Notes under the pieces: model-generated
What the model was told of the DNA's origin: nothing
Databases searched by the model: none
Seen by the model: only the letters and a program-made list of their open reading frames with translations
Program-made: the position numbers and the translations under genes
Part shown: positions 9,222 to 27,842 of the stretch, piece by piece
How positions within the stretch are numbered: position 1 is the first letter of the stretch
How the letters are laid out: every line of letters begins with the position of its first letter
NCBI GenBank assembly: GCA_026386805.1
Contig: JAPLMX010000189.1
Span: forward strand, 1 to 64,000
DNA length: 64,000 nt
Reading direction: 5' to 3'
From: Phycisphaerae bacterium
Lineage (GTDB): Bacteria; Planctomycetota; Phycisphaerae; Sedimentisphaerales; Anaerobacaceae

Positions 9222-9321
9222 GTCATCCTGAACGCAGCGAAGCGGAGTGAAGGATCTGGGCCACGACTTGGAGGAACCTCTCATCCACAGACCAGATCCT
9301 TCGCCTTCGGCTCAGGATGAC
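9222..9321. repeat. TCATCCTGA-type inverted-repeat element
   Basis: The left arm GTCATCCTGAACGCAGCGAA and a right arm ending CTTCGGCTCAGGATGAC enclose AAGGATCTGG/CCAGATCCTT. The element is about 100 bp and fills the space between nadD and hypB. Related copies occur at 31984, 48764 and 50906. Confidence 0.65.
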
Positions 9322-9363
9322 AGAGCCCCACACCACGCGGCACTGCTTCAAGGCTCGCTATGG

Positions 9364-10023
9364 TTACCTGCGGATTTGACCCGTCAGCCAAGCATACCAA
9401 TCCTGCATGCCTTCGCCGGTCTTGGCCGAGACGGGGAAGATTTCGATGCTCTTGTTGAGTCTCCGCGCATCCACTTTGGCGCGCTGGAGGTCGAAATCGA
9501 CCTGGGCGCCGCCTTGGAGCAGGTCGATCTTGTTGATGAGCAGGACTCTCGACTTGGCGAAGATGCCGGGATACTTCGCCGGCTTATCATCACCCTCGGG
9601 CACGGACAGCACGACAATCTTCCCATGTTCGCCCAATTCAAACGCCGCCGGACAGACGAGATTACCGACATTCTCAATCAAGACCATATCCAGACGATCG
9701 AGAGGCAGTTCTTTCAAAGCACGGCTCACTTGCGCGGCGGACAGGTGACATCCTCCCTCCGTGTTGATCTGGACCGCCGGGGCCTTGGCGGCCCGGATTC
9801 TCTGGGCATCGATATCCGTCTGAATGTCACCCTCAATGACCCCGATCCGCAGCGTCCCGGTCAGGTCCGTGATGGTCCGCACGAGCAGGGTCGTCTTGCC
9901 GGAGCCGGGCGAGGAGATCAGGTTGAAACACGGCGTGCCGTGCTGAGCCAGAAGCTGGCTGTTCTTCAACGCGTACGCCTCGTTCGCGCTCAGTACCTTC
10001 TTGCCGATGTCAACCTTCTCCAT
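9364..10023 (-). CDS. hypB: Hydrogenase nickel incorporation GTPase HypB
   Basis: A 219-residue SIMIBI GTPase that, with HypA, delivers nickel to the [NiFe]-hydrogenase large subunit. It shows P-loop SSPGSGKTTLL, GDIQTDIDAQR, the Zn/Ni-site GGCHLSA, and NKIDLL for guanine recognition. It lacks the N-terminal His-rich nickel-storage stretch. The ATG at 10023 overlaps the end of hypA by 14 bases and has AAGGA upstream. It is the last gene of the hypC-D-E-A-B run. Confidence 0.93.
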   Translation of the reverse strand: MEKVDIGKKVLSANEAYALKNSQLLAQHGTPCFNLISSPGSGKTTLLVRTITDLTGTLRIGVIEGDIQTDIDAQRIRAAKAPAVQINTEGGCHLSAAQVSRALKELPLDRLDMVLIENVGNLVCPAAFELGEHGKIVVLSVPEGDDKPAKYPGIFAKSRVLLINKIDLLQGGAQVDFDLQRAKVDARRLNKSIEIFPVSAKTGEGMQDWYAWLTGQIRR

Positions 10024-10369: not shown

Positions 10370-11400
10370 CAGCAAATCCTCGGCAACTCCCGCCCGTAGG
10401 GCATCTGCACGATCCGCCGGCCCCCGATCTTCGTCTTGAGCTCGACCAGTGGGACATCGCGCGTCTCGACGATCTGGCCGATGATCCTGGCTTCAGCACC
10501 CAATGGATGCTCCCGGCACACTCTCAGACACTCATCGGCGGCATCGGGCGATACGACGGCCACGAACTTGCCCTCGTTCGCCGCGTTGAGCACGTCGAAG
10601 CCGAGCATATCGGCGGCCGCCTGGACCGCCGGCTTCACGGGAATCGCCCTCTCTTCGATCTCCACGCTTCGGCGGCTGCCTTCAACGATCTCGTTGAGCG
10701 TCGCGGCCAAGCCGCCCCGCGTCGGGTCCCGCATGAACCGAATCCCCGGCACCGTCTCGAACAAGCGGCACGTCAGCTCCGCCAGTCCCGCACAATCGCT
10801 GGCCAGCGGCGATTCGAAGCTGATCCCTTCGCGCTGTGAGATGATCGTCATGCCGTGGTCGCCGATCGTACCGTTGATGAGAATCTTGTCCCCCACCTCG
10901 ATCCGGCCCAATCCCAGCTCCACGTTCGGCAGCTTGATGCCGATCCCGGCGGTGTTGATGAAGATCCCGTCGGCACAGCCATGATCGACGGTCTTCGTAT
11001 CGCCCGTCACGATGCTCACGCGATTGCACTCGGCCGTGGCGCTGATGCTTTGCAGGATTCGGTCCAACAGCTCGATCTCGAAGCCTTCCTCGATAATCAG
11101 TGCCAGCGACAAAGCGAATGGCCTGGACCCGGACACTGCCAGGTCGTTCACCGTCCCGCAGACAGCGAGCTTGCCGATATCGCCGCCCTTGAAGAACAGC
11201 GGCTTGACCACGTAGCTGTCCGTCGTGAAGCAAATCGCGTTGGAGGATAGCGTCAAATGGGCGGAGTCGCCCAGCTCGCCCAGCACGTCGTTCTTGAGTC
11301 TCGGCAGGATTCGCTCGCGGATAAGCTGGTTCTGGAGCTGGCCTCCGCCACCGTGAGCAAGCAGGATTCTTTCAGGCTCGGTCGCCATCGTGCGCGTCAT
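10369..11400 (-). CDS. hypE: Carbamoyl dehydratase HypE
   Basis: A 343-residue PurM-type ATPase that dehydrates the carbamoyl group on its C-terminal cysteine to a cyano ligand for the hydrogenase iron. The C-terminus is the diagnostic ELPRIC. The N-terminal LLAHGGGG motif and central DPTRGGLAATLNE are typical. The start ATG at 11400 overlaps the hypD stop as ATGA. The open frame extends much further upstream, but that part is hypD read in another frame. Confidence 0.95.
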   Translation of the reverse strand: MTRTMATEPERILLAHGGGGQLQNQLIRERILPRLKNDVLGELGDSAHLTLSSNAICFTTDSYVVKPLFFKGGDIGKLAVCGTVNDLAVSGSRPFALSLALIIEEGFEIELLDRILQSISATAECNRVSIVTGDTKTVDHGCADGIFINTAGIGIKLPNVELGLGRIEVGDKILINGTIGDHGMTIISQREGISFESPLASDCAGLAELTCRLFETVPGIRFMRDPTRGGLAATLNEIVEGSRRSVEIEERAIPVKPAVQAAADMLGFDVLNAANEGKFVAVVSPDAADECLRVCREHPLGAEARIIGQIVETRDVPLVELKTKIGGRRIVQMPYGRELPRIC

Positions 11401-12473
11401 TTCCTCCGACCATATTTGAACCACGCCGCACAGGTCCCCTCCGAGCTGACCATGCACGGGCCGACCGGCTTCTGCGGCGTACACCGGGTCCCGAACAGCG
11501 GGCATTGCATCGGCTCGATCAGTCCGCACAGGACTTCGCCGCACCGGCACCCCTTGATCTCCTTGCCGGGCTTGTCCTGGAGGCCGAACCGCTTGAAGGC
11601 GTCGAATTGACGGTATTGCTCTTTGAGGGCCAGCGTGCTCTTCGCGATCTTTCCGACGCCGCGCCAATAGCCATCCACCGGCTCGAAGCACTCGGCGGTG
11701 ATCCGCTGAGCGGCGGTGTTGCCTTTTTCACTCACGACGGCGTTATAGATCGACTTCAGTTCCGCCGTCCCGGCCGCAAGCTGCCGGCAAATCTCCGCCA
11801 ATCCCTCGATGATCTGCAGCGGCTCAAAACCTGCGACCACACAGGGACGATGATAGTCGTTCACGATTTCCGCGAACGCACCCGAACCGATGATCACGCT
11901 GACGTGCCCCGGGCAGAGAAAGGCGTCGATCCGGTCATTCATCCCGCTCAGCAGCGCCCGCATCGCGGGAATGACCAACTTGTGGCCGCTGAGGATGCAG
12001 AAATTCGGAATCCCTTCGCTCGCCGCCTCCTGGACTGCGACGGCGGTCGCCGGCGTCGTCGTCTCGAAGCCCACGGCAATGAACACGACGGTCCTGCCGG
12101 GGTTGTCGCGGGCCAACTGAAGCGCATCTTCGCTGCTCAGAACCACCTTGACATTGCCGCGCGACGCCCGCGTTTCCAGCGACCCATCGCTGCCCGGCAC
12201 GCGGATCATGTCGCCATAGGTCGCAATCAAGCAGTCCTCGCGGTCCGCCAACTGCATCACGGCGTCGATGTAGCCCTGGTCCGTGACACACACCGGGCAT
12301 CCCGGCCCGGAGAGCAGCTTCAATTTCTCGGGCAGAATCGACCGAATCCCACTGCGGAAGATGGAGACCGTATGCGTCCCGCAGACCTCCATGACCGTGA
12401 TCTGCCGGTCCAACCCCCGGCACGCTTGTTCAATGGTGTGCTGCGCTTGCGCGACCCTGTCCAACATCCGCAC
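11397..12473 (-). CDS. hypD: Hydrogenase Fe-S scaffold HypD
   Basis: A 358-residue [4Fe-4S] protein on which the Fe(CN)2CO unit is built with HypC. The signatures MEVCGTHT, GPGCPVCVT and AVGFETTTPAT are all present, and the C-terminal cysteines (GCRCGEVLCG, CPLFGTRC) complete the cluster region. The length is normal. It is coupled to hypE by ATGA. A word-like repeat separates it from hypC. Confidence 0.95.
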   Translation of the reverse strand: MRMLDRVAQAQHTIEQACRGLDRQITVMEVCGTHTVSIFRSGIRSILPEKLKLLSGPGCPVCVTDQGYIDAVMQLADREDCLIATYGDMIRVPGSDGSLETRASRGNVKVVLSSEDALQLARDNPGRTVVFIAVGFETTTPATAVAVQEAASEGIPNFCILSGHKLVIPAMRALLSGMNDRIDAFLCPGHVSVIIGSGAFAEIVNDYHRPCVVAGFEPLQIIEGLAEICRQLAAGTAELKSIYNAVVSEKGNTAAQRITAECFEPVDGYWRGVGKIAKSTLALKEQYRQFDAFKRFGLQDKPGKEIKGCRCGEVLCGLIEPMQCPLFGTRCTPQKPVGPCMVSSEGTCAAWFKYGRRK

Positions 12474-12482
12474 TACCTCTTT

Positions 12483-12597
12483 GAAGTATGAGGTGTGATG
12501 TTTGACGTTTGAAGTAGGAAGCCGCCCTCAGTTCGGATCAAAGGATCACCCTCCATCAAGAATCAACCATCAAAATTCTCACTTCTCACTTCCTCGA
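12483..12597. repeat. Word-like inverted repeat between hypC and hypD
   Basis: Low-complexity runs of GAAGT/TTTGA words on the left (TGATGTTTGACGTTTGAAGT) are answered by ATCAA/CACTT words on the right (TCTCACTTCTCACTTCC). The right end overlaps the 3' end of hypC. Similar elements occur at 41013, 43800, 55057 and 59556. Confidence 0.5.
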
Positions 12598-12799
12598 TCT
12601 CCGCGAAGAGCTCCCACGTCTTCTTCGCCTCTTCCTCATCCACTTGGGAAATGGCAAAGCCAGCGTGCACCAGTACCACGTCCCCGAGCTTCGCCTCGGG
12701 CAAAAGCGTAGTCTTCGCCTTCCAGCGGTTGCCCATTGCATCGACCACCGCCCGGTCGCCCTCCAACTCAATGATCCGTGCCGGTACTGCCAAACACAT
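12563..12799 (-). CDS. hypC: Hydrogenase maturation chaperone HypC
   Basis: A 78-residue chaperone that carries the iron ligand complex between HypD and the hydrogenase large subunit. The start is the ATG at 12799, giving the essential N-terminal Met-Cys (MCLAVPARI); the longer frame upstream would bury that cysteine. GDVVLVHAGFAISQVDEEEA is the family core. It is the first gene of the hypCDEAB run, and about 90 bases of repeat separate it from hypD. Confidence 0.92.
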   Translation of the reverse strand: MCLAVPARIIELEGDRAVVDAMGNRWKAKTTLLPEAKLGDVVLVHAGFAISQVDEEEAKKTWELFAEIEEVRSENFDG

Positions 12800-12930
12800 A
12801 ACTCGATACTCGTTCCTTATTCCTATTGCATGAACGTCATCATTACGGTTCAACGGCCTGTTTGTGCGTGCCAATGGTCATTGTATGGGTCCAGGCGCCC
12901 AGGGTCAACCCTGTGGGAGCAAGAGGCCAA

Positions 12931-13089
12931 GGCAATTGCATGTGCCCGTGGTTCTGAAGTGTCGAGGGCGTCCCGCCCTCGAATCGCGGGCAGGATGCCC
13001 GCGACACAAGCAGGGCCCAATGGACCGGGTGGCGCTGCCCGGCTGTTTTCGACAGAGGGCAGTGCTTCACAAGGGAACATGCAATTGCC
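12931..13089. mobile_element. 159-bp MITE-like element, copy 1
   Basis: The ends are perfect 12-bp terminal inverted repeats, GGCAATTGCATG (12931-12942) and CATGCAATTGCC (13078-13089). Inside is a double hairpin (GAGGGCGTCCCGCCCTC and GCGGGCAGGATGCCCGC). An inverted copy of the same 159-bp length lies at 27843-28001. There is no coding capacity, so it would be non-autonomous. Confidence 0.6.
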
Positions 13090-13109
13090 CTGGAGAAGAA
13101 GCAGCTTCT

Positions 13110-13213
13110 GTAGGGCGAGCGTCTCCCGCTCGCCGCCCTTGTCGTTCATTTTCGCGCGACGGTTCCGACAACTTCGACTTCTCACAATAAGCGAGCGGGG
13201 ACGCTCACCCTAC
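13110..13213. repeat. Compound palindrome (GTAGGG(C/T)GAGCG arms)
   Basis: The left arm GTAGGGCGAGCGTCTCCCGCTCGC and right arm GCGAGCGGGGACGCTCACCCTAC are inverted copies about 60 bases apart, and each can also fold on itself. It sits directly after the MITE-like copy. Confidence 0.6.
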
Positions 13214-13371
13214 TGGGCGGCCGCGAATCCGTCACCGAATGCTGACCACCCCTCGATGCGGACGCCGCAGGCAAGACTTGACACGCCGCGAGGCATTGCA
13301 TACTCTGATGGTCGATTTACAGACACAATCGTAGTATTTGGAGAGGGGCAGGCTGAGCCGGGAAGTGATGT

Positions 13372-13662
13372 ATGGCGATCAGACAAATACTCGAAGAGAA
13401 GCGGGACGACATACTGAATACCGCGGCCAGACATGGAGCGTACAACGTTCGGGTGTTTGGCTCGGTGGCGCGAGGCGAAGACAGACCCGACAGCGACGTG
13501 GACTTGTTGGTTGATGTCCGAACCACAACGAGCTCGTGGTTCCCGGCCGGACTCATCTTGGATCTTGAGCAGATTCTCGGCCGGCAGGTGGAAATCGTGA
13601 CCGAAAAAGGGCTGAACCCGCACCTGCGCGAACAGGTGCTCCGAGAGGCCGTCCCTTTATGA
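13372..13662 (+). CDS. Orphan MNT-type nucleotidyltransferase
   Basis: A 96-residue minimal nucleotidyltransferase with GSVARGEDRPDSDVDLLVD (residues 24-42), the GS...D-x-D signature of MNT antitoxins. A typical C-terminus (GRQVEIVTEKGLNPHLREQVLREA) follows. The expected HEPN/DUF86 partner should start right at its end: an ATG does (ATGAGGCTATGCGCATAA), but it stops after five codons. The pair therefore looks broken. It is unlike the intact MNT/HEPN pair at 5.5 kb, so not a recent duplicate. Positions 13663-13898 contain nothing else I can support. Confidence 0.75.
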   Translation: MAIRQILEEKRDDILNTAARHGAYNVRVFGSVARGEDRPDSDVDLLVDVRTTTSSWFPAGLILDLEQILGRQVEIVTEKGLNPHLREQVLREAVPL

Positions 13663-13898
13663 GGCTATGCGCATAAGTGTGTGCTCACAATGAAATGGGG
13701 ATCACGTTTAACGCATGACAGGCTACCAGCAGATAAATGCACTGATGCGCCCGATGCACCAAGATGAGCCTGATTCGACCGGGCTCTTCTGATCCTGCTG
13801 GTAGCCACCAATGCGATAAACACATCACGACCATTGGCTCGGTTATGTGAGAAGCCTGAAACCAAAAGGATTGTATCGGGCGCGGAGGAAGAAGATTT

Positions 13899-14642
13899 AT
13901 GAACGGAGTGTTCGACGATCTCGACGATGTGGCAAAAGAGTATCTGTTGCCAATGGTTCAAGACCCCGCCAATAGAGAATGGTCCTGGGGCCACTGCTAC
14001 ACTTTTTTTCAGAATTACCGTGACTGGAACGAAAAGCAACGACGGGCGGACAGAGAGCTTGCGCCTCTTCATCTGGGATTCTATTTGGCAAGTTGGGGTA
14101 TGTTCAGAGGCAGCGGTCTCTTAATACAGAAAGATTACACTATATACGGGGCTATCATAGACCGTTTGCTCGCAGACCGGTACAAAGAACTATGGAATGC
14201 GGATTTCTTCCAGGACTTGTTTACGAGCAAGAATCGCATTTCGCCGGACAATGCGCAAGTTGGGCTGGTCTTTGACTTAGTAGACCAGATTCGGAAGTAC
14301 GTTGATGGACTGCCGGTTACCGGGAATCCCGGCAGACCTGTGCCCAGATGCACCGATACGATAGTAACGAAGATCCTCCTTGGTACTCTGGCTTGCACAC
14401 CAGCCTACGACCAATACTTCCCCGTGGGGCTAACCGTCCACCGCGCCAGAAGGTGCGGTTCCTTTACGAGGGACTGCTTTACAAATCTACTGAACGTCTG
14501 CAGAGAAGAGCACCTTTGGCAGAGACTATGTGAGGATCCTATCGAGTATCCCGGTGTCGATCCCCCCATACCCCTGATGCGTGTTGTCGATCTCTACTTC
14601 TGGTACAAGGGGTTCTGCAAATCTCGCGAAAAGCGATTGTAA
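13899..14642 (+). CDS. Conserved-looking protein of unknown function
   Basis: A 247-residue soluble protein with no signal peptide or membrane helix. It is rich in aromatic residues and Asp. A striking central stretch, LHLGFYLASWGMFRGSG (about 58-74), looks like a conserved helical motif. I do not recognise an enzymatic family. It lies between an orphan antitoxin and hypF, convergent with hypF (15-base gap), and interrupts the hyp gene set. The next-door position of toxin-antitoxin, repeat and restriction genes makes a defence or mobile origin possible, but nothing in the sequence proves it. Confidence 0.65.
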   Translation: MNGVFDDLDDVAKEYLLPMVQDPANREWSWGHCYTFFQNYRDWNEKQRRADRELAPLHLGFYLASWGMFRGSGLLIQKDYTIYGAIIDRLLADRYKELWNADFFQDLFTSKNRISPDNAQVGLVFDLVDQIRKYVDGLPVTGNPGRPVPRCTDTIVTKILLGTLACTPAYDQYFPVGLTVHRARRCGSFTRDCFTNLLNVCREEHLWQRLCEDPIEYPGVDPPIPLMRVVDLYFWYKGFCKSREKRL

Positions 14643-14656
14643 ATACCAAATCGCCA

Positions 14657-17005
14657 TCAACGAGTGACTATTCTTGCGGCAATCGCCGCCTGGCCGAGGG
14701 CGATTCCGCCATCGTTGGACGGGACGCTACGGTTCCCTAATACCGCAAACCCCTCCTGCTTCAAACGCCTAACCAAACGGTCCGTCAGAAACCGATTGCA
14801 GAAGACGCCACCGCTTAAGGCCGCCACCTCCAGCCGCGTGCTCTCTCTGGCCGCTTTGGCCATCACCAGCAATGCCTCAGCCAGCGTGTTGTGGAACTTC
14901 GCGGAGATGACCGCTGCGGTCCTGTCGCTTCTCAGGTCTTCCACCACGCCTTTGAGCGTTCTGCGCAGATCCAATTGCAGCGGTTCAGCGCCGTGTGGCA
15001 GGTCAGACTCGTAGCGATCTTCAATGCCCGGCTCCGCCAGCGATTCCAGGGCCATTGGAAGCTGGGCGTCGAAGTGGTTGTAGTTGCCCAGGCCGAGCAG
15101 CGCCGCGACCGCGTCAAAGACCCTGCCCAAGCTGGAAGTGCTCACCGTGTTGATTCGCTTATCGATCTGTTCGAGGATGAGCTTCATCTTGCTGTGGCCG
15201 GACTCGACTCGTTCCAGCAGCCATGCGAATCGATCAAGTGTGAAATCGTCTCCGTAGGCCTGCCTCAGGAGGCTCAGAAGCGGCCGAATCGGTTCCTTGC
15301 TTGCCTTGTCACCACCGGGCAAGGGATAATACGCGAGGTGCCCGAAGCGCCGGAACTGCGTCAAAGAGGCGATCATGCACTCGCAGCCCCAGATGGCCCC
15401 GTCCGTGCCGTAGCCCGTGCCGTCGCATTCGAGGCCGATCACCGGCCCGGCCAGCCCGTGCTCGGCCAGAACCGACGCGATGTGGGCCCAGTGATGCTGG
15501 ACCTGAATCACTCTCACGCCCGGAAGGGATTTCGCATATTGCGTGGACAAGTAGCCCGGATGCAGATCGCACGCGACGACCTTTGGCTCCACTTCGAATA
15601 GTCCGGCCAGATGCCGGATGGACCCGACATAGTGGTGGTAGACTTCCGCGTCCTCGAGGTCGCCGATGTGCTCGCTGAGGATCAGTTGGTTGTGCTTCGC
15701 GAAGCAGAAGGTGTTCTTCAGATCCGCCCCGGTCGCCAGCACTTCCTGCGGCGCAGGCTCCGGCATGAAGATCGGGGTCGGCACATAGCCTCGCGCCCGA
15801 CGCAGCAGCGCCGGCTCACCGGCGACTGACTGCACGATGGAATCGTCCACCTGCCGGTAGATCTCCCGGTCGTGCATCAGGAAGGCGTCCGCCACGTCGC
15901 CGAGCCTCTCCAAGGCAAGCTCGTTGCGGCAGATCAGCGGCTCATCCGAAAGGTTCGCACTGGTCATCACGAGCACGTCCAGGCCCTCGGCAAACAGCAG
16001 GTGATGAAGCGGTGCATAGCAGAGCATGAATCCGACCGTGCCGACGCCCTGTGCCACTGAAGGCGCAAGACCGGGGTCAGGCCTTCCAGAGGCTGCGTGA
16101 GAAGCCGGCATTCTCGGGGTGGCATACACCCTCTTAGGCAAGAGCACGATGGGACTCTGAGGACTTCTCAGGACCTGTTCGGCCGCCTGGTCCACGAACG
16201 CGTACTCTTTTGCGTCTTCCACGGAGCGAACCATCATCGCAAAGGGCTTGTGATCGCGCCGCTTGCGTTGGCGGAGTCTGAGCACTGCATCATTGTTGAG
16301 AGCGTCGCAAGCCAGATGAAACCCGCCGACGCCCTTGATCGCGACGATCTTTCCCGCCCGCAGCAGCCGGGCCGCCTCTGTGATGACCCCGTCCGTGCCG
16401 GTTTGCAGCGCTTTGCCGGCGGGGTCAGCCAGCCAGATCTTCGGTCCGCACTGGGGACATGCGACCGGCTGGGCGTGGAACCGCCGATCCGCCATGTCGC
16501 GGTACTGGGCGGCACACCGCCCGCACATCTCGAATGACGACATGGTCGTGTTGGGCCGGTCGTAGGGGATCGTCTTGATGATCGAGTAGCGCGGCCCGCA
16601 GTTGGTGCAGTTGATGAAGGGATAGCGATACCGGAAATCCGCCGGACTGAAGAGTTCCGCCAGGCAATCGCCGCAGGTGGCGATATCCGGCGTCACTTGC
16701 GACAGGGCCGTGCCTTGCGAGTCGCTCTTTTCGATGGCGAACCCCGTCTCGCCCTCCACCGGCTCGATGTCCACCCGCCGGCACGACCTGATCCGGGCCA
16801 GCGGCGGCTTATCCGCCCCCCCTTGCAGCCGGCGGAGAAACTCATCAATCGCCTCTGGGGGCCCCTGGAGCTCGACCGTCACCCCTTTGGTATCGTTAAA
16901 GACCCTGCCCGTCAGGGCCAAGTCCCGGGCCAACCGATACACGGCAGGCCGAAAGCCCACTCCCTGCACGCGCCCCGTCACTCGTATCGTTTGCCTTTGA
17001 ATCAA
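14657..17005 (-). CDS. hypF: Carbamoyltransferase HypF
   Basis: A 782-residue protein that converts carbamoyl phosphate to carbamoyl-AMP and transfers the group to the HypE cysteine. In order: acylphosphatase domain (VTGRVQGVGFRPAVYRLA, about 6-90), two zinc-finger motifs (CGDCLAEL...CTNCGPRYS and CGRC...CPQCGP, about 105-195), a YrdC-like domain (about 200-380) and a Kae1-like domain with HHWAHIASVLAEHG and DGTGYGTDG. No ATG is suitable. A TTG at 17005 with GGGGA 5 bases upstream overlaps the stop of the restriction-modification gene as TTGA, so translation is coupled to that gene. It is separated from hypC by about 1.9 kb of foreign-looking DNA. Confidence 0.92.
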   Translation of the reverse strand: MIQRQTIRVTGRVQGVGFRPAVYRLARDLALTGRVFNDTKGVTVELQGPPEAIDEFLRRLQGGADKPPLARIRSCRRVDIEPVEGETGFAIEKSDSQGTALSQVTPDIATCGDCLAELFSPADFRYRYPFINCTNCGPRYSIIKTIPYDRPNTTMSSFEMCGRCAAQYRDMADRRFHAQPVACPQCGPKIWLADPAGKALQTGTDGVITEAARLLRAGKIVAIKGVGGFHLACDALNNDAVLRLRQRKRRDHKPFAMMVRSVEDAKEYAFVDQAAEQVLRSPQSPIVLLPKRVYATPRMPASHAASGRPDPGLAPSVAQGVGTVGFMLCYAPLHHLLFAEGLDVLVMTSANLSDEPLICRNELALERLGDVADAFLMHDREIYRQVDDSIVQSVAGEPALLRRARGYVPTPIFMPEPAPQEVLATGADLKNTFCFAKHNQLILSEHIGDLEDAEVYHHYVGSIRHLAGLFEVEPKVVACDLHPGYLSTQYAKSLPGVRVIQVQHHWAHIASVLAEHGLAGPVIGLECDGTGYGTDGAIWGCECMIASLTQFRRFGHLAYYPLPGGDKASKEPIRPLLSLLRQAYGDDFTLDRFAWLLERVESGHSKMKLILEQIDKRINTVSTSSLGRVFDAVAALLGLGNYNHFDAQLPMALESLAEPGIEDRYESDLPHGAEPLQLDLRRTLKGVVEDLRSDRTAAVISAKFHNTLAEALLVMAKAARESTRLEVAALSGGVFCNRFLTDRLVRRLKQEGFAVLGNRSVPSNDGGIALGQAAIAARIVTR

Positions 17006-20793: not shown

Positions 20794-20866
<73 letters not shown>

Positions 20867-20867
20867 T

Positions 20868-20915
20868 TCAGTTCAACACAGCGAAGAAGGCGGAAGCATC
20901 GACATAGACGTTCAC
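20868..20915 (-). pseudogene. PIN-domain toxin, first 15 codons only
   Basis: A GTG overlapping the antitoxin stop (GTGA) opens a frame reading MNVYVDASAFFAVLN and then TGA. V-Y-V-D-A-S-A-F is the start of VapC-like PIN RNases, and its Asp is the first catalytic acid. The frame is cut one base away from the 3' end of tRNA-Ala, so the remaining ~115 residues were lost at that junction. Confidence 0.65.
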
Positions 20916-21160
20916 TTGCCGTTGTCCTCTGCCAAGTAGTGGTCATGGCGAACAGAGACATCCTTACGGCCCGAGCGAAACCGTCCGGCCGCCGCCATTG
21001 CTTTGTGCTTCTTCCGGCCGACGTCAGCCGACAGGTCTGATGCCAGTACTTGGTCCACCCCTCGTCGTATGAGTTCCGCCATAGACAACTGATGCCGATG
21101 CGCCAGCTTCCTCAGGGACTGGGCTTGGCTTTCCGTCAACTGAACTTGGGTCCGAACCAT
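20912..21160 (-). CDS. Ribbon-helix-helix antitoxin (VapB/CopG-like)
   Basis: An 82-residue DNA-binding antitoxin. A ribbon-helix-helix fold is evident in VRTQVQLTESQAQSL...LSMAELIRRGVDQVL near the N-terminus, followed by a charged tail that would wrap the toxin. The start MVRTQVQ at 21160 (AAGGTGG 8 bases upstream) fits the usual family start. An ATG at 21190 with GGAG is also possible. Its partner PIN toxin gene overlaps its stop codon but is destroyed after 15 codons, leaving the antitoxin alone. Confidence 0.75.
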   Translation of the reverse strand: MVRTQVQLTESQAQSLRKLAHRHQLSMAELIRRGVDQVLASDLSADVGRKKHKAMAAAGRFRSGRKDVSVRHDHYLAEDNGK

Positions 21161-21240
21161 ACGTGAATCCACCTTGAGTTCTTTGGCCATGAATTGCTCC
21201 GAATAGCCCCAGCGCGGCCTTCGGCCGCAACCAAAACCTC

Positions 21241-21325
21241 CTCTCGCCAAGACGCAGAGAACGCCAAGAAGACAGGACCGTGATCCTCTTACCCTTTGCG
21301 GTCTTGGCGTCTTTGCGAGAAACCT
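21241..21325. repeat. Word-like inverted repeat (CGCCAAGACGC / GTCTTGGCGTC)
   Basis: Left words CTCTCGCCAAGACGCAGAG are mirrored by GCGGTCTTGGCGTCTTTGCGAG on the right. It lies between the antitoxin and the template-repeat region, where a DGR reverse transcriptase would normally stand. Confidence 0.55.
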
Positions 21326-21474
21326 GATTCTCTGGGTTTTAACGACTTACGTCGCGTATGCGCAAAAACCTTCGCGAGAAAACAAGATTGGAACAAGTAG
21401 GAGTACAAAAGGCCGCACGGCACGTTCGGATGCAATCGCCTACCAGTCCCGCGCGGTCCTGTGACGTAGATTCG

Positions 21475-21555
21475 GTTGCCGGGACACCGGCCCGGCAACT
21501 CAGGAGCAGCGCCAGGACTTCCGGAACCACGCTCCCGGCATCCGTAAACGCCGGG
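21475..21555 (-). other. Structured region 3' of the template repeat
   Basis: Downstream of the template on its transcribed (minus) strand are two stable hairpins: GTTGCCGGG/CCCGGCAAC (21475-21499) and CCCGGC/GCCGGG (21534-21555). In characterised DGRs the RNA just after the template folds and is bound by the reverse transcriptase. That role here is inferred from position only. No reading frame in 21326-21592 looks like a protein. Confidence 0.35.
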
Positions 21556-21592
21556 ATTCCGGGCACAGAAGAAAGCCTTCTGAGCGGAAGTG

Positions 21593-21734
21593 CAAGGCCA
21601 AACGACACCGACACCACACGAAAACCAATATTGTCGTTGCGTTCATCGGGGTCGTTGTTGTTGCGATACGCGCTGCGACAGTTCCTGGGATTATTGTTCC
21701 AGGCACCGCCACGCAACACACGACCAGAGCCAGA
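21593..21734 (-). repeat. DGR template repeat (TR)
   Basis: A 142-bp non-coding copy of the 3' end of both receptor genes, on the same strand. Reading it in frame gives [20 protein letters not shown], rich in AAC/AAT codons as in DGR templates. Compared with the first receptor there are 15 differences, 14 of them at template adenines. Compared with the second there are 28, of which 19 are at adenines. After the shared GTCGTTTGGCCTTG the template continues CACTTCCGC, while both receptors continue GGAC, as expected for IMH* versus IMH. It has no start codon or ribosome site of its own. This is my strongest non-gene call. Confidence 0.9.
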
Positions 21735-21765
21735 CAGCGCTGCCCCTTCAACCAACAAAAGGCAT

Positions 21766-21795
21766 TGTAAAGGGTAAAAGAGCAAAGAGCAAAGG
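21766..21795. repeat. AAAGAGCAAAG word-like repeat after receptor 1
   Basis: The GTAAAGGGTAAAAGAGCAAAG stretch follows the stop of receptor 1, and an almost identical stretch follows receptor 2 (24651-24680). The shared flank extends past both stop codons but is absent next to the template repeat. Confidence 0.5.
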
Positions 21796-24636
21796 TTATT
21801 CGGAAGGTCCAAGGCCAAACGACACCGACACCACACGAAAACCAATATAGTCGTTGCGAGCAACGGGGGCGCTGCAGTAGCGATACGCGCTGCGACAGAA
21901 CCAGGGACTATTGATCCAGGCACCGCCACGCAACACACGAACAGAGCCGAATGGAGGCGCGTTTGGGTCCTTGACAGTGGATTTCTCGCCAAACAAGTCG
22001 CTGCACCATTCCCAGACGTTGCCGGCCATATCCAGATGGCCGCCAGGTCCCGCGCCGGCAGGATACATCCCCACGGGGCTTGGCGCTCCCACGTTATGAC
22101 CGAAGTTCAGGAGTTCTTCGTTCGCGGGCTCGTTGCCCCAGGGGTAGTCGCCCTGGGGATTCGTGGCCGCCGCGGCCCATTCCTCTTCCGTCGGGAGGCG
22201 ATAGGGCAACTCGGTAGACTCACGGAGCCATTGACAGTAAGCGCGTGCCTCGTACCACGATACGCCGGTAACCGGCCGGCTGAGATGCTCCAACTGATCG
22301 TCCCAGTGATCTGGAGCGTCCCATCCCTCGCGGGCCTTGATGGACCAGGAATCACCCCAGAAGCGCTCCTGCCCATAGCCGCCGTTGTCTACGAATCGTC
22401 TGTACTCGTCGACCGTGACCGGATACCGGCCCAGCAGAATCCCCTTCACACCTGGCACCGGGAGCATCGCAGGCTCAGGCCTGGCCAAACGCGGGTCGCC
22501 CGCCTTGCCCAGGGCCTCCGCCGCCGCCAAACGCTGGCGCCAGGGGACCCGCTGGGCCCCTTCTCGTGTGAATATCGCCAAGACGCGATCCCGCGTCTCG
22601 TCCCAACCCAACCGCGCCGGCGGTTGATAGTCATACACCGCCAGGATGTGCAGCAGCCGGCCCAGGATACCCACGGCCCGTGCCGTCGCGGCCAAGTCCC
22701 CCTCCTTCGCCTGGCCCAGGATGCGTTCCACCAGCAGATACAACCCGCGCCGGCCGGTCTTGGCCAGACAGCCGGCAAAGTGATCGATGACCTCTTTCCA
22801 CTGCTCATCGTCCGCGTGGGGAGCGATCTGGGCCCACCACCCTTCCTCCCCGTCGCCCAATTCCGAGAGGGCCTTACCGGCGTAGTGCTCCTGAAACGTC
22901 AGGTGCCAGAACCGCAGGCGGCCGGTACTGTCCTGGCATACGATCCCGCTGTCGACCATTTCCGCCTCCAGGAACCGCACGCCTTCGCGGCGCAGATGGT
23001 CTGGCTTGACGTCGCGTTCATCCAGAAAAGGCCGGCCCAGTTGCTCCGCCGCCCAGGCCAAATCGACGGTGACCTGCTTGCCCTCGGGGGCCGTGGTCAT
23101 CGCCAGGGCCAGTTCTTTGAAACACTCCCCGGCAAAGGTGCTGGTGTAACCTCGGTCCCTGCGTTTCTCGTCCCTGGCGTACAGCAGCCAACGGAGCACG
23201 GCCATCAACAGGTCCGCCTTGCCCTCGGGGAGATGACGCTCGTTCCAGTGGACCACGCACAGGCAGGTCAGCATCACCGGGTTCTGGGCCATACGGCGTA
23301 TGTGCGGCACGTTGAGGACGGCGGCCTGGAGCTGGGGTAGATAGGCGTTTCGGCCTCGCTCTTGTTCATCCGGATACAAGGCCGTGGCCCAGCGCTGCAT
23401 GAACTGGACGATCTCCGGCTTCTCGAAGGCGCAGATGTGCGCCGTGGCCATGCCTTCAAGTCCGGCCACGGCCTGGTAGCCGAAGGGGCGGGACGTAATC
23501 ACGAACAGATTGTTCCTCCAGTGATGAACCAGCGCGTTGACCATGTCGGCCATGCGGGTACGCAACGCCGGGTCGGCCACCTCGTCCAGCCCATCCAGCA
23601 GGACCACACACCGATCCTGATCCAGGAATCTCGTCAGCAGGTCCGCCTTGGCGGCGCCGAAGCCATCCGCAAGGGCCCGTGGCAGGGCGCACCATGCGGC
23701 TCCACGGCCGCCGTCTTTCGAGGCCGCGACCAGTCGGGCCACGCTGACCAGGATGGGCACCGGCACGGCCTCCACGTCCGCCAGCCCGAGCAATGCGTGG
23801 CGGCGCGATTTCCCCGGGTCCAGTCCGTCTTTGGCCAGTACGCACGCGATGAACCGCAGAAACGTCGTCTTGCCACCGCCCGGATCACCCACGATCAGAA
23901 GCCGCCGATGGCGCGACAAAAGGTCTGTCAGCGGCACACGCTCGGAAGGGCCGCCCCTGCCAATGTCGGACACGCGCGCTGGGCTGTCTGAGCCGGTCTG
24001 AAGGGGAGTGTAGTGCTCCTCAATGGGAAAGTACACCGGCTGCCGACCCGCCCCCGATTCCGAGAGAATGCCCTGGATATCGATCCGATGCGTCTGGGCC
24101 TTCAGCTCCTCAAGATAGTCCCGGCGCAGACGTTCGTGCGCACCCAGGTCTCGGCCCTTCTTCCATTGCAGCAAGGCCGCCAGGACCTTCTGGCCCAAGG
24201 TGTTGTCGGTGAACGGGGCCGCCATCTGGTCCCTACGGAACCGGGCCTTGAAGGCATCGAGCTTGTCTTGCTTCTTCCATCGATCCGGACCTGCGTCAAA
24301 GTCACCTGGGGCCACAGGTAACGACGGGTCGATCTCGAACATCAGCCGCTCGCGCGCCTGCCCATATTCGAGTTCCGTGATCGATGCGTCTTGTCCCTCT
24401 GGCATCCACCCATATCGGTGCGCGACAATCCCCAGCAGCGCATCGGCCTGCTTCACATAGTCCAGGCACGCTTCCATCGTCGGCGTCGTCGAAGCCGTAA
24501 ACCTCTCCATGCCAATGGGCATCATGTCGGCTTGGAGTATGGCCTCCTCCACGATCTGGCGTCGCTCCTGGTTGTCCAAATACGTGCTGGACACAAACAC
24601 CTTGTAGGTTCTCTCCGATGTCCCGTCTCGTGTCAT
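21796..24636 (-). CDS. DUF4062-NACHT-FGE-sulfatase receptor, DGR variable protein 1
   Basis: A 946-residue STAND-type NTPase probably acting as an intracellular sensor in conflict or self/non-self recognition. It has an N-terminal DUF4062 domain ([15 protein letters not shown], about 10-105), a NACHT NTPase with Walker [10 protein letters not shown] (250-258) and Walker [11 protein letters not shown] (343-352), and a helical linker. The C-terminal formylglycine-generating-enzyme-like C-type lectin fold (about 730-946) has [42 protein letters not shown] and RVLRGGAW. The last 50 residues are the variable region. Helical repeats such as TPR or WD are absent. It follows receptor 2 on the same strand with a 45-base gap. 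Confidence 0.88.
21811..21949 (-). repeat. DGR variable region 1 (VR1)
   Basis: The 3' end of receptor 1, aligned without gaps to the template at 21593-21734. Changed codons are AAC>ATC, AAT>AGT, AGG>TGG, AAC>TTC, AAC>TAC, AAC>TGC, AAC>AGC, GAC>GCC, GAT>GTT, GAA>GCT and AAT>TAT, all at template adenines. The only other difference is one G>T near the 5' edge. Conserved lectin-fold positions (CRSAYR, IGFRVV) are unchanged. The near-perfect match outside adenines indicates recent or ongoing retrohoming. Confidence 0.9.
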
Positions 24637-24681
24637 AAGATGTACGGCCCTCTAAAGGGTAAAAGAGAAAAGAGCAAAGGG

Positions 24682-27600
24682 TTATTCGGAAAGTCCAAGG
24701 CCAAACGACAGCGACACCACACGAAAACCAAGAAGGTCAAGGCGCTCATCAGGGTCGTAGAAGTGGCGGCACGAGCAGCGACAGAACCAGGGATAATGGA
24801 ACCAGCACCCACCACGCAACACACGACCAGAGCCAGAGGGTGGTCCCTTTGGGTCCTTGATACCTGCTTTCGGATACTCACCGTACCGCTCGCTACACCA
24901 TTCCAGTACATTGCCGGCCATGTCCAAGACTCCTTTCGGCGTAGCGCCGCGAGGGTAGATACCTACGGGCGTCGGACACCGTATCTCGCTCTCACCGTAG
25001 TTCATTCGCGATGGATCGGGCTTCTCGTCCCCCCAGGGGTAGCGCCGGCCCCGGGGTCTGCGAGCCGCCCGTTCCCATTGGGCCTCCGTGGGCAGGCGAC
25101 AGCCCGACCAAGCGGCGTAGGCAGCGGCCTCGTACCAGCTCACGCCCACCACCGGCCTCGTCGGGTGTTCAAGCTGCTCCTCCCACCCGTCCGGCGCCGG
25201 CCACTTGCCAAAGCCCTCGGTGTCCCACAGGCGCTCCTCTTCGTAGCCGCCAGCCTCGATGAACCGCAAGAACTCGGCCACTGTCACAGGGTAACGCCCC
25301 ATCCGGTATGCCTCCAGAGTGACCGGGTGAACGGGCGATTCGTCAGCATCCGCTTCGGGGTCGTAGTTGGGCTGGGAACGGTCGCTCTTCTGGGCGCCCA
25401 TGAGGAACTCACCGGCGGGGATCGTGACCCAGTTGTCCGCGCGGGCGGCGTCCGTAAAGCGAGGATCGCCCGCTTGGCCAAGGGCCTCGGCGGCCTGGAT
25501 GATGACCTTGATGTCGATCCCCTTGGCCTTCTGGGCGTCGAAAATGGCCATCACCTTGTCGAGAAGCTGCTGATAGCGCGGGTCCGCCGGCCGATAGCCC
25601 ACCGCCGTAAGGTCCCGTACGGCCGCCCCCAGCAGGCCGGCACACCGGGCCTGGCCGGCAAGCGTCCCGCTATCGCAGGCCCCTTCCAGAACAGCCGAGA
25701 CGAAGGCATCGACCTTGCGATGGCCCTGTTTGTGCAGAACGCCGGCCAGCAACAGCACGACCTCTCGCCAGGACGGCAGATACAGCTTGGGGCCATCGGG
25801 GGGCGTCAAAAGGATCGTTTTGGCTTCCTGCTCCGGACGGGCGGCGATGGCACGGGCGGCCAGGAACTCCTGGAACGTCAAGTGCCAAAAGCGGATATCA
25901 TCGCCGCGACGGATCACGATGCCGCTATCGACCTCCTCTTCCGCCAGAAATCTCTCGGCGGTCTCAATCCGGTCCCGCTCCGACCCTTGGGCCCATTCGC
26001 CAACGATCTGCTCGGCCGCCCAGCGTCGAGGGACTTGGACCTGACGGCCTTCCGGGTGATTCTGCATCGCCAGCGCCAGCTCCTGCAACCGGTTGATGCA
26101 CGCCGGGGCGGGCAGACGCCCGGGACGTCCTTCACGAGAACGCGACAGCCAGGTAATAATCGACTCGTAGAGATCGGCACGCTGCTCGGGCAGGCGTTTC
26201 TCATGCCAGTGGACGACAGCCAACGCCGTCAGCATGACCGGGTTGCGGGCCATGCGGCGAATCTCGATCCTTGAACGAACGGCCTTGAGCAGCTCGTCGC
26301 CGTGCTGCCGCGCCTGTTTTTCGCTGTTGTCGAAGAGACGCGCACACCAGCGAGTCAGAAATGTCTCGATGGCGTCGTCTTCCAGAGGCTCGATCCGGAC
26401 CTGCGTGAAATCCGGCAGGACCGCCCGGCCCTCGAAGGCCGGCGGGCGGCTGGTCACGACGAAGCGGCAGTTCTCGAAATGCCGAGCCGCCTTGGTCACC
26501 AGATCGACAATCCATTCACGCTGCTGCCTCGTTGCCGTCTCATCCAGCCCGTCCAACAGGACCACGGCCGGGCCTTGGGCAATTGTCTGGTCGAAGAACT
26601 CCCGATCGAGGCCCGCCTTCTCGTCGGCGTTGGCCGCGGCCATGAAGTGCGCCAGCCACGCGGGCGCATTTTTGACGTGCGGCGCTCCAGGCTCTCGCCC
26701 GCAACACCCCTCGACGTGCTCGGCCAGTTCCGAGAGGCGGATCAGGGCTGGAAATGCCCGATCCTCCAAGCCCAGAGTCTCCGCCGTCGTCTTGCCACCG
26801 AGCCCGAGCCTGCTGTTGCACAGGCCGTAGGCGATCCGCCGCAAAAACGTCGTCTTTCCCGCGCCGGGATCGCCCAGAATGACCAGCTTGCGGTGTTTCA
26901 GGGCCGCGTGCAGGTCCATCGGTCTGTGCTCTTCGATGTGGGACTGCACCTCCTTGCTGTCCTTCCGCCTCTGACGGGACTCTGGCGATTCGTCCGCCAG
27001 GATCGTCTTGAGCGGGATGTAAAGGTCGTCAATGGGAAACCGTTGGGCCCGGCCGCTTTCCACTTCCAGACCCCGGATGTCAATATGGGAGGTCTCCTCG
27101 CGAAGCGTCCGCAGATACCGATCCGGGTCGGATACTCGCGGCGCCGGCCCTCCAGTTATGCCACGGCCCTGGCCCCACTGCGACAGCGCCAATTGAATCT
27201 TGCCCCCGAGGTCCTCCGGCGTGGTGAACGTTGCCCGAGTCCGATCCTTGCTGAGCCAGGTTTTGAACTCCTTGAGGCGGTTGACCCGCCACTGGATGTC
27301 CGCGGAAAGCTCCGGTGTCAGCTTGTCCTGCTGGACCGCCGAAATGAGCGTGTATTCTTCGCAGAGGTCCGCCGGCCATTTGTGCTTGTCGTCCACGAGA
27401 AAGACCAGCATGTCCTTGCCGCTGTCTTTTGCCCTCTCGCACTCCAGCCAGGTGATGCTCTTTCGCTTCGCAGGGTCGGTTTCGGGCTGCTGGTCCGGTA
27501 CCCAGCCGAATCGATAGGCGACGATCACGACCAGCACATCGGCCTTCTCGACCTTCTCAAGGCACTGTTTCAGTGGCGGGTTGTCTTTTGCCGCCCAGTA

Positions 27601-27717
27601 CTCCTGCATCTCGGGAAAAAAGCCCGCCCCGAGGGCTGCTTCCTTGGCCTCGATGCGGTGTCTGGTCTTGTCGAGGTCTTCACAGGTCGATGAGATGAAA
27701 ACAACGGGTTTTGCCAT
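24682..27717 (-). CDS. DUF4062-NACHT-FGE-sulfatase receptor, DGR variable protein 2
   Basis: A 1011-residue paralogue of the downstream receptor with the same domain order. DUF4062 (KPVVFISSTCEDLDKTR, about 1-125) is followed by NACHT with Walker A GDPGAGKTT and Walker [14 protein letters not shown] helical region precedes the FGE-sulfatase lectin fold (GRYPVTVAEFLRF, GVSWYEAAAYAAW, RLPTEAQWERAARR, DMAGNVLEWCSE). The start ATG at 27717 has AGGAG 8 bases upstream, preferred over one 30 bases earlier. The two receptors are diverged over most of their length but nearly identical at the very end, where the template acts. It lies first in the two-gene unit. Confidence 0.88.
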   Translation of the reverse strand: MAKPVVFISSTCEDLDKTRHRIEAKEAALGAGFFPEMQEYWAAKDNPPLKQCLEKVEKADVLVVIVAYRFGWVPDQQPETDPAKRKSITWLECERAKDSGKDMLVFLVDDKHKWPADLCEEYTLISAVQQDKLTPELSADIQWRVNRLKEFKTWLSKDRTRATFTTPEDLGGKIQLALSQWGQGRGITGGPAPRVSDPDRYLRTLREETSHIDIRGLEVESGRAQRFPIDDLYIPLKTILADESPESRQRRKDSKEVQSHIEEHRPMDLHAALKHRKLVILGDPGAGKTTFLRRIAYGLCNSRLGLGGKTTAETLGLEDRAFPALIRLSELAEHVEGCCGREPGAPHVKNAPAWLAHFMAAANADEKAGLDREFFDQTIAQGPAVVLLDGLDETATRQQREWIVDLVTKAARHFENCRFVVTSRPPAFEGRAVLPDFTQVRIEPLEDDAIETFLTRWCARLFDNSEKQARQHGDELLKAVRSRIEIRRMARNPVMLTALAVVHWHEKRLPEQRADLYESIITWLSRSREGRPGRLPAPACINRLQELALAMQNHPEGRQVQVPRRWAAEQIVGEWAQGSERDRIETAERFLAEEEVDSGIVIRRGDDIRFWHLTFQEFLAARAIAARPEQEAKTILLTPPDGPKLYLPSWREVVLLLAGVLHKQGHRKVDAFVSAVLEGACDSGTLAGQARCAGLLGAAVRDLTAVGYRPADPRYQQLLDKVMAIFDAQKAKGIDIKVIIQAAEALGQAGDPRFTDAARADNWVTIPAGEFLMGAQKSDRSQPNYDPEADADESPVHPVTLEAYRMGRYPVTVAEFLRFIEAGGYEEERLWDTEGFGKWPAPDGWEEQLEHPTRPVVGVSWYEAAAYAAWSGCRLPTEAQWERAARRPRGRRYPWGDEKPDPSRMNYGESEIRCPTPVGIYPRGATPKGVLDMAGNVLEWCSERYGEYPKAGIKDPKGPPSGSGRVLRGGCWFHYPWFCRCSCRHFYDPDERLDLLGFRVVSLSFGLGLSE
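24695..24837 (-). repeat. DGR variable region 2 (VR2)
   Basis: The 3' end of receptor 2 compared with the template. Of 28 differences, 19 are at template adenines (for example AAC>TTC, AAT>CAT, AAT>TAT, AGG>TGG, AAC>CAC, AAC>TAC, AAT>CTT, ATT>CTT). Nine are elsewhere, several of them synonymous (GGC>GGT, CCC>CCT). The extra non-adenine changes indicate an older copy that has drifted since its last template conversion. It ends with the same GTTTGGCCTTGGAC as VR1. Confidence 0.85.
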
Positions 27718-27842
27718 GGACGGCTCTCCTGACGGCGGGCGTCCCACGTCTCATGGGAAACGTTGCCACGCACGCGCGTTCCTGTGACGCGGAGTATAGA
27801 GAGCCTGCGTTCTTGTGTCAATGCGTCTTGAGACCGGCTCAG

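Follow-up and report, generated by a model that had tools for sequence, protein, structure and literature searches.

The window, a 64,000-nt stretch of a Phycisphaerae contig, carries on its minus strand two adjacent genes of the same architecture, followed by a short repeat of their 3′ ends. We refer to the genes as receptors 1 and 2, to the repeat as TR (template repeat) and to its counterparts inside the genes as VR1 and VR2 (variable regions):

21796-24636, minus strand: receptor 1, 946 aa, DUF4062-NACHT-FGE-sulfatase (ORF and Pfam)
24682-27747, minus strand: receptor 2, 1021 aa as an ORF, DUF4062-NACHT-FGE-sulfatase (ORF and Pfam)
21813-21948, minus strand: VR1, the 3′ end of receptor 1 (comparison with TR)
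24699-24834, minus strand: VR2, the 3′ end of receptor 2 (comparison with TR)
21596-21731, minus strand: TR, 136-nt core with 27 adenines and 109 other sites

Along the minus strand the order is thus receptor 2 (27747-24682), receptor 1 (24636-21796) and TR (21731-21596). The database protein of receptor 2 (P0121) starts about 10 codons later than the ORF and has 1011 aa. Both translations contain a GDPGGGKTT or GDPGAGKTT stretch and an LLDGLDE stretch, which we take to be Walker motifs. The Pfam FGE-sulfatase domain runs to the C-terminus in both receptors, in keeping with the C-type lectin fold that a first-pass annotation of this DNA had assigned to the targeted end. An AlphaFold2 model of the receptor 1 domain (mean pLDDT 88) resembles FGE/EgtB-type folds. 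In sequence, the same domain matches TvpA of Treponema denticola (2y3c) at E 3e-13; TvpA is a target of a diversity-generating retroelement (DGR) whose TR/VR logic is that of the window. From their architecture, both NACHT receptors are predicted to be sensors of invaders; CLec-STAND proteins are described as still without experimental characterisation (Dore et al. 2024, PMC10907252).

TR has no gene of its own. It is flanked by the stop codon of receptor 1 (21796) on one side and by an antitoxin-like ORF on the other; an open frame of 217 aa, which covers part of VR1 as well, does read through it. The three copies lie in register (21574-21768, 21791-21985 and 24677-24871) and the receptor ends align with the template without gaps, which confirms the near-identity of a non-coding segment to two receptor 3′ ends noticed in the first pass. 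Similarity to TR reaches beyond the core, to about 21588-21734, and identity outside the repeat falls to 20-50% per 20 nt. Across the assembly, the clear matches to TR are TR itself, VR1 and VR2; a search at E ≤ 10 gave 10 matches, and the remaining seven span 15-22 nt with E ≥ 0.2. On another contig of this genome (C45, 6538-6749; L169), an FGE-type gene end is 62% similar to TR over 125 nt.

Adenine-directed differences between template and receptors

Over the 136-nt core, VR1 differs from TR at 15 positions, 14 of them template adenines, and VR2 at 28, 19 of them adenines; the earlier counts are reproduced exactly. By site class, the differences fall on 14/27 A sites and 1/109 non-A sites in VR1, and on 19/27 and 9/109 in VR2. 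Tabulation by template base, the check proposed with those counts, therefore places the mismatches preferentially on A (hypergeometric p 6e-11 for VR1 and 1e-10 for VR2). When the comparison is extended to 147 nt, VR1 has 19 mismatches (14 at A) and VR2 has 29 (19 at A), and no change in either is to A. The commonest replacement at a template adenine is T (9/14 in VR1, 12/19 in VR2). The template is indeed packed with AAC/AAT codons: AAY makes up 9 of its 45 codons, against 2% in receptor 1. We estimate its peptide repertoire at about 10^15. None of its 17 A-codons can reach a stop codon, an outcome expected by chance in 25% of cases and thus proving nothing.

The third positions of the altered codons are informative about drift. 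Where A at codon position 1 or 2 has changed, a non-A third base is altered in 0/10 codons of VR1 and 2/13 of VR2; this speaks against drift, which would strike third bases first. Duplication of the receptor ends, followed by drift, by selection on the binding face or by ordinary gene conversion, would dispense with a DGR altogether. Tandem receptors can arise by duplication, and the family as a whole is hypervariable at the binding face. However, drift after duplication is contradicted by the adenine table and by the unchanged third bases of VR1, with its single non-A change in 109 sites, and gene conversion would have levelled the A sites too. Moreover, DGRs that do carry a reverse transcriptase (RT) show the same adenine bias in 7 of 80 related loci and in the same-genus genome G008. 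We consider an origin by duplication hardly credible.

Family-wide variability follows the same codons. We compared columns at the 17 template codons whose first or second base is A with all others. In the best 120 of 753 homologs of receptor 1, query included, column entropy is 3.15 bits at the A-codons versus 1.50 elsewhere (p ~2e-6); in the best 120 of 738 homologs of receptor 2, again with the query, it is 3.29 versus 1.40 bits (p ~2e-6). Among the 120 homologs listed in each case, non-A columns above 3 bits number two for receptor 1 and four for receptor 2 (with a fifth at 3.00), all at the repeat's edges, and two A-codons, AGC and ATT, vary less than the others. As the changed codons belong to the C-type-lectin end and coincide with hypervariable columns of the family, each rewriting would change receptor binding.

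A metagenomic homolog of receptor 2 (P0128) has a C-terminus, ...PALPLRESSSVPGIR, that resembles the in-frame reading of the TR 3′ flank; judged by this likeness, its VR seems to continue into flanking sequence of the template type.

Each variable region follows the template of its own species

An orthologous locus is present in G003, a genome of the same genus, on contig C156:

6301-6166: VR, the end of a DUF4062-type receptor
6091-5956: TR, with 15 of 16 mismatches to its own VR at A

By site class, G003 TR and VR differ at 15/26 A sites and 0/104 non-A sites. The receptor is a shuffled ortholog of receptor 1: its DNA resembles that of receptor 1 in the N-terminal part (69% over 500 nt) and in the VR, but hardly in between. 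It was reached through the TR match and lies beyond our search of 60 relatives at E ≤ 1e-60, which returned receptor 1 in its own genome only. Upstream of it, only the remnant of a second VR is left (9311-9403).

In the core, 102 positions carry a base other than A in both templates, and at 10 of these the templates disagree. At these diagnostic sites VR1 has the state of the window's TR in 10/10 cases and VR2 in 9/10, while the G003 VR has the state of the G003 TR in 10/10; a 6-nt absence is common to G003 TR and VR. Four TRs from other genomes, used as outgroups, allowed 3 of the 10 sites to be polarised. Position 21645 changed in the window's lineage, and its new state is present in VR1 and VR2; positions 21663 and 21647 changed in the lineage of G003, and their new states are present in the G003 VR. 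Since each VR follows the template of its own species, TR-to-VR copying continued after the species split in both lineages.

Together with the adenine table, template following strongly supports adenine-directed rewriting of the two NACHT receptor ends. The first-pass annotation had proposed that these receptors are, or recently were, diversified: we find strong support for "recently were", and partial support for its interpretation as a whole. With 9 non-A differences in 109 sites against 1, VR2 was rewritten earlier than VR1. Taken as a clock, the 1/109 of VR1 would limit the age of its last rewriting only loosely, to a few percent of divergence. Adenine-directed copying from the present TR alone does not explain the 9 non-A differences of VR2.

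A locus without reverse transcriptase or complete Avd

The RT is a required DGR component (Roux 2021). In a six-frame search of the 64-kb window with a profile of 7 DGR RTs, the best match had E 4.9. The assembly comprises 5.55 Mb in 279 contigs and is 93.5% complete, so that 6.5% of the genome may be unseen; RVT_1, the DGR RT profile and a sibling's RT as query found no DGR RT in it. RVT_1 returned two RTs, on contigs C114 and C79, the DGR profile at E ≤ 10 only that on C114, and the sibling's DGR RT added one 34-residue RT tail on C77. As a control, the profile retrieved the L035 genome at 2.6e-180, as expected for an RT that is itself in the profile. Complete Avd, the accessory protein, was not found in the assembly either; there is a 27-nt likeness beside TR and one truncated Avd on C77. 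Because searches of both the window and the assembly failed to turn up the RT, and Avd is reduced to a 27-nt likeness, the locus does not qualify as a complete DGR.

Candidates for the missing parts were considered and rejected. The C114 RT matches the DGR profile at 2.9e-20, but it has two stops and a motif that we take to be group II-type. The C79 RT (166-1200; L171/L002) is retron-like: its best PADLOC match is RT_VI (3e-64), with no DGR-profile match at E ≤ 10. Four S23-like four-helix proteins (on C205, C69, C235 and C193) were examined as Avd, two of them by in-frame reading; that on C205 alone matches the Avd profile, at 6.7e-6 versus 1.3e-42 for C77.

The DGR RT profile has matches in 33 of 99 relatives at 1e-5, but in only four at E < 1e-90 (G008, G045, G048 and G075). 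Within the genus, G008 is the only one of 8 other genomes with an RT match below 1e-90. The G003 assembly yielded no DGR-type RT, its orthologous locus being RT-less too; its two weaker profile matches (5.7e-27 and 5.7e-11) look group II-like.

On the 3′ side of TR, comparison with G003 divides the sequence as follows:

21405-21595, minus strand: TR 3′ flank, conserved with the orthologous G003 locus (nucleotide alignment)
21198-21404, minus strand: about 200 nt absent at this place in G003 (gap between aligned pieces)
21171-21197, minus strand: likely Avd scar, 27 nt, ATG at 21190 (comparison with G003 Avd)
20912-21250, minus strand: antitoxin-like ORF (ORF and weak ribbon-helix-helix match)

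From 21600 to 21405 the flank is identical to that of G003 at 172/196 positions, and the counterpart of the ~200-nt insert is 8 nt long. The scar matches the start of the truncated G003 Avd gene at 24/27 positions, the ATG included (E 3e-5 in a 1-kb comparison), and 20 shuffles of 7 kb gave no match with ≤ 6 mismatches. In G003, the accessory gene that follows the TR flank matches Avd profile positions 3-85 of 113 and then runs into another stretch, presumably antitoxin-like. The window's antitoxin-like ORF (RHH_1 E 0.0011, 19.3 bits, under the Pfam cut-off of 20.5) includes the scar in its reading frame and lies where Avd and RT stand in sibling loci. By its likeness to G003, the 27-nt stretch is likely a remnant of the Avd start; as it stands 3′ of the shared flank, the window's TR was probably once followed by Avd. 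Sibling loci suggest that the RT would have come next in the ancestral locus.

Beyond the antitoxin-like ORF, a short frame at 20867-20950 reads VNVYVDASAFFAVLN and stops beside a tRNA-Ala gene; we take it to resemble the start of a PIN toxin. A toxin-antitoxin remnant may thus occupy the place where Avd and RT were. The tRNA-Ala (GGC) gene, at 20794-20866, lies at the edge of the receptor/template block and is a possible island boundary.

The missing RT might also be an artefact of contigs misjoined across repeats, the real locus continuing from TR to Avd and RT. TR/VR repeats are troublesome for assembly, and a palindromic, repeat-like stretch is visible at ~21250-21330. Yet the break falls not at TR or VR but beyond ~190 nt of conserved flank, the insert and the 27-nt Avd-like stretch, and the C77 and G003:C156 loci have other, differing junctions. 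A misjoin is accordingly quite improbable.

A second broken locus in the same genome

Contig C77 carries a second DGR that is broken:

10877-15865 (L168): NACHT/FGE receptor, VR, Avd, RT tail and transporter-like ORF ("transporter" is our own reading)

Its receptor is in two overlapping frames, through either a frameshift or a sequencing error, and ends in the VR. Avd is cut at its 3′ end and the transporter-like ORF follows. In the sibling species G008, contig C510 has the order Avd, TR-like repeat, RT and the same transporter-like ORF. The two contigs share Avd (85% over 267 nt) and the transporter-like ORF (78% over 1324 nt); in C77, Avd passes directly into what remains of the RT, its 3′ tail (71% over 108 nt). 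Missing from C77 are about 1.36 kb that in G008 hold the TR-like repeat and nearly all of the RT, and by eye a short shared stretch is found at the deletion junction. Between the G008 repeat and the C77 VR there are 24 mismatches in 120 nt, 17 of them at A (29 A; p 4e-8). Searched against the window's genome, the C510 repeat matches the C77 VR and the window's TR, and nothing else. Read against its sibling, the C77 locus has undergone a deletion that removed the template along with almost the entire RT.

The DGR RTs of G008 are located on small contigs, of 3.4 and 5.5 kb. They belong to two intact DGRs, L159 and L158. L159 has RT, TR and two FGE-ended VR genes, and resembles the template/target half of the window; 20/25 and 22/27 of its mismatches are at A. 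The 3.4-kb contig (L158) contains Avd, a TR-like repeat and RT, whereas RT and Avd are absent from the window locus. Our scan for adenine-biased repeats found no VR on this contig; its repeat is known by its likeness to the window's TR (74%) and to the C77 VR.

Related loci and known systems

We scanned 80 related loci for adenine-biased repeats, leaving out L003-L005, L017-L019, L023 and L026 as copies of the window. Repeat pairs of this type occur in 8/80 loci, seven of which have a full RT, containing the letters PIGNLTSQ, next to the pair. The eighth, L059, has kept Avd, and its RT is reduced to a C-terminal fragment. It is a degenerate DGR (10553-11532) with a NACHT/FGE target and 11/11 TR/VR mismatches at A. 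RT-eroded loci of this receptor class therefore exist elsewhere. At L099, an RT match is partial and the scan found no repeat pair.

In DGRs generally, copying of a template RNA introduces errors at its adenines, and the cDNA then takes the place of the VR (Dore et al. 2024, PMC10907252; Roux 2021); Avd belongs to many DGRs, though not all. The NACHT-sensor DGRs described by Dore et al. have, like the window, a pair of neighbouring targets, each with NACHT in the middle and a single CLec/FGE end at the C-terminus. By Pfam, the window's receptors show this trait of clade 5D (two targets, central NACHT/nSTAND, a single CLec each). Loci in that description also combine missing or pseudogenised machinery with adenine-directed rewriting, as here, and the degenerate-DGR trait, with TR and/or VR kept, is found both in the window and on C77. 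The window departs from that account by its DUF4062 N-terminus, which goes unmentioned in the paper's main text, and by an assembly in which no RT was found; in addition, a between-species template test here replaces read-level variation. The FGS-domain conflict systems (Kaur et al. 2020, PMC7159879) likewise have a C-terminal FGE/FGS domain varied by a DGR in putative conflict proteins; as described there they are mainly vWA/MoxR ternary systems, with which we compared the window at the level of its ORF list. Bordetella phage BPP-1 (L108) shares the TR/VR logic. Its DGR keeps RT and Avd together with TR at a single locus and diversifies a tail protein, whereas the window is RT-less and its targets are NACHT receptors. 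Among the open-access papers searched, none pairs DUF4062 with "diversity-generating", and none treats concerted evolution together with loss, reverse transcriptase and diversity-generating retroelement.

A proposed, recently orphaned retroelement

We now propose, with a probability of roughly 60%, that a DGR rewrote the two NACHT receptor ends until recently and has since likely lost its RT, which would make it a recently orphaned, degenerate element. The best reading of the window locus is a degenerate DGR of the NACHT-sensor kind (Dore et al. 2024, PMC10907252). We infer the enzyme, the copying, the sensing role and the present silence of the system. TR RNA would have been copied by the DGR RT together with Avd, random bases being inserted opposite template adenines. 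The resulting cDNA would have replaced the 3′ end of receptor 2, in an earlier event, and of receptor 1, in a later one. The altered C-type-lectin end would then shift what the NACHT receptor binds, predicted to be a ligand of an invader.

The element may instead still be active, with RT and Avd acting in trans from an unassembled or unbinned part of the genome, or with cells in the population that have an intact locus. This is a serious though clearly less probable account. VR1 (1/109) and the G003 VR (0/104) are almost without non-A differences. They are so fresh that loss of the enzyme must be assumed to have happened recently twice, and a single unseen RT per species would explain both equally well. 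Binning can miss contigs as small as those that carry the RTs of G008, and the present assembly is incomplete. The Avd scar, only 27 nt long, is another point against loss. In Thiohalocapsa PB-PSB1, disrupted DGR loci are reported to have stayed diverse, and action in trans or coexisting intact structural variants were proposed (Dore et al. 2024, PMC10907252).

Against present activity, neither the window's assembly nor that of G003 yielded a DGR RT. C77, the only further locus with Avd, lost its RT by deletion and has its receptor in two overlapping frames, and VR2 is not fresh. Outside cellular genomes, TR has no exact 25-mer in viral contigs and no phage match, and its matches to five cyanobacterial plasmid records (H1-H5) reach only 73-81% over ~100 nt; those stretches possibly belong to DGRs carried on plasmids. 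Between loss of the enzyme and action in trans or intact variant cells, we favour loss at about two to one. It is doubtful, and somewhat less probable than continued activity as such, that the RT-less loci of both sister species have been kept in step by an RT from another replicon or from cells with an intact copy. If the RT did come from elsewhere, receptor diversification would be a shared, trans-acting resource and not a self-contained cassette.

Under loss of the RT, the locus would capture a DGR in the act of decay: template and receptors are intact, the enzyme is not found, and deletion scars can be read against sibling genomes. The between-species template test needs no reads to tell recent rewriting from an old duplication, and it can be applied to other RT-less loci, which searches starting from the RT skip. 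DUF4062-NACHT-FGE receptors would join the putative bacterial sensors that were once hypermutated. Whether frozen receptors are useful, and whether an RT can serve a template at another locus, thus become testable questions.

Finally, G045, a genome of the same order, also has adenine-biased pairs. In L185, 10/11 and 16/18 mismatches are at A, and in L186, which carries RT and an Avd match, 19/20.
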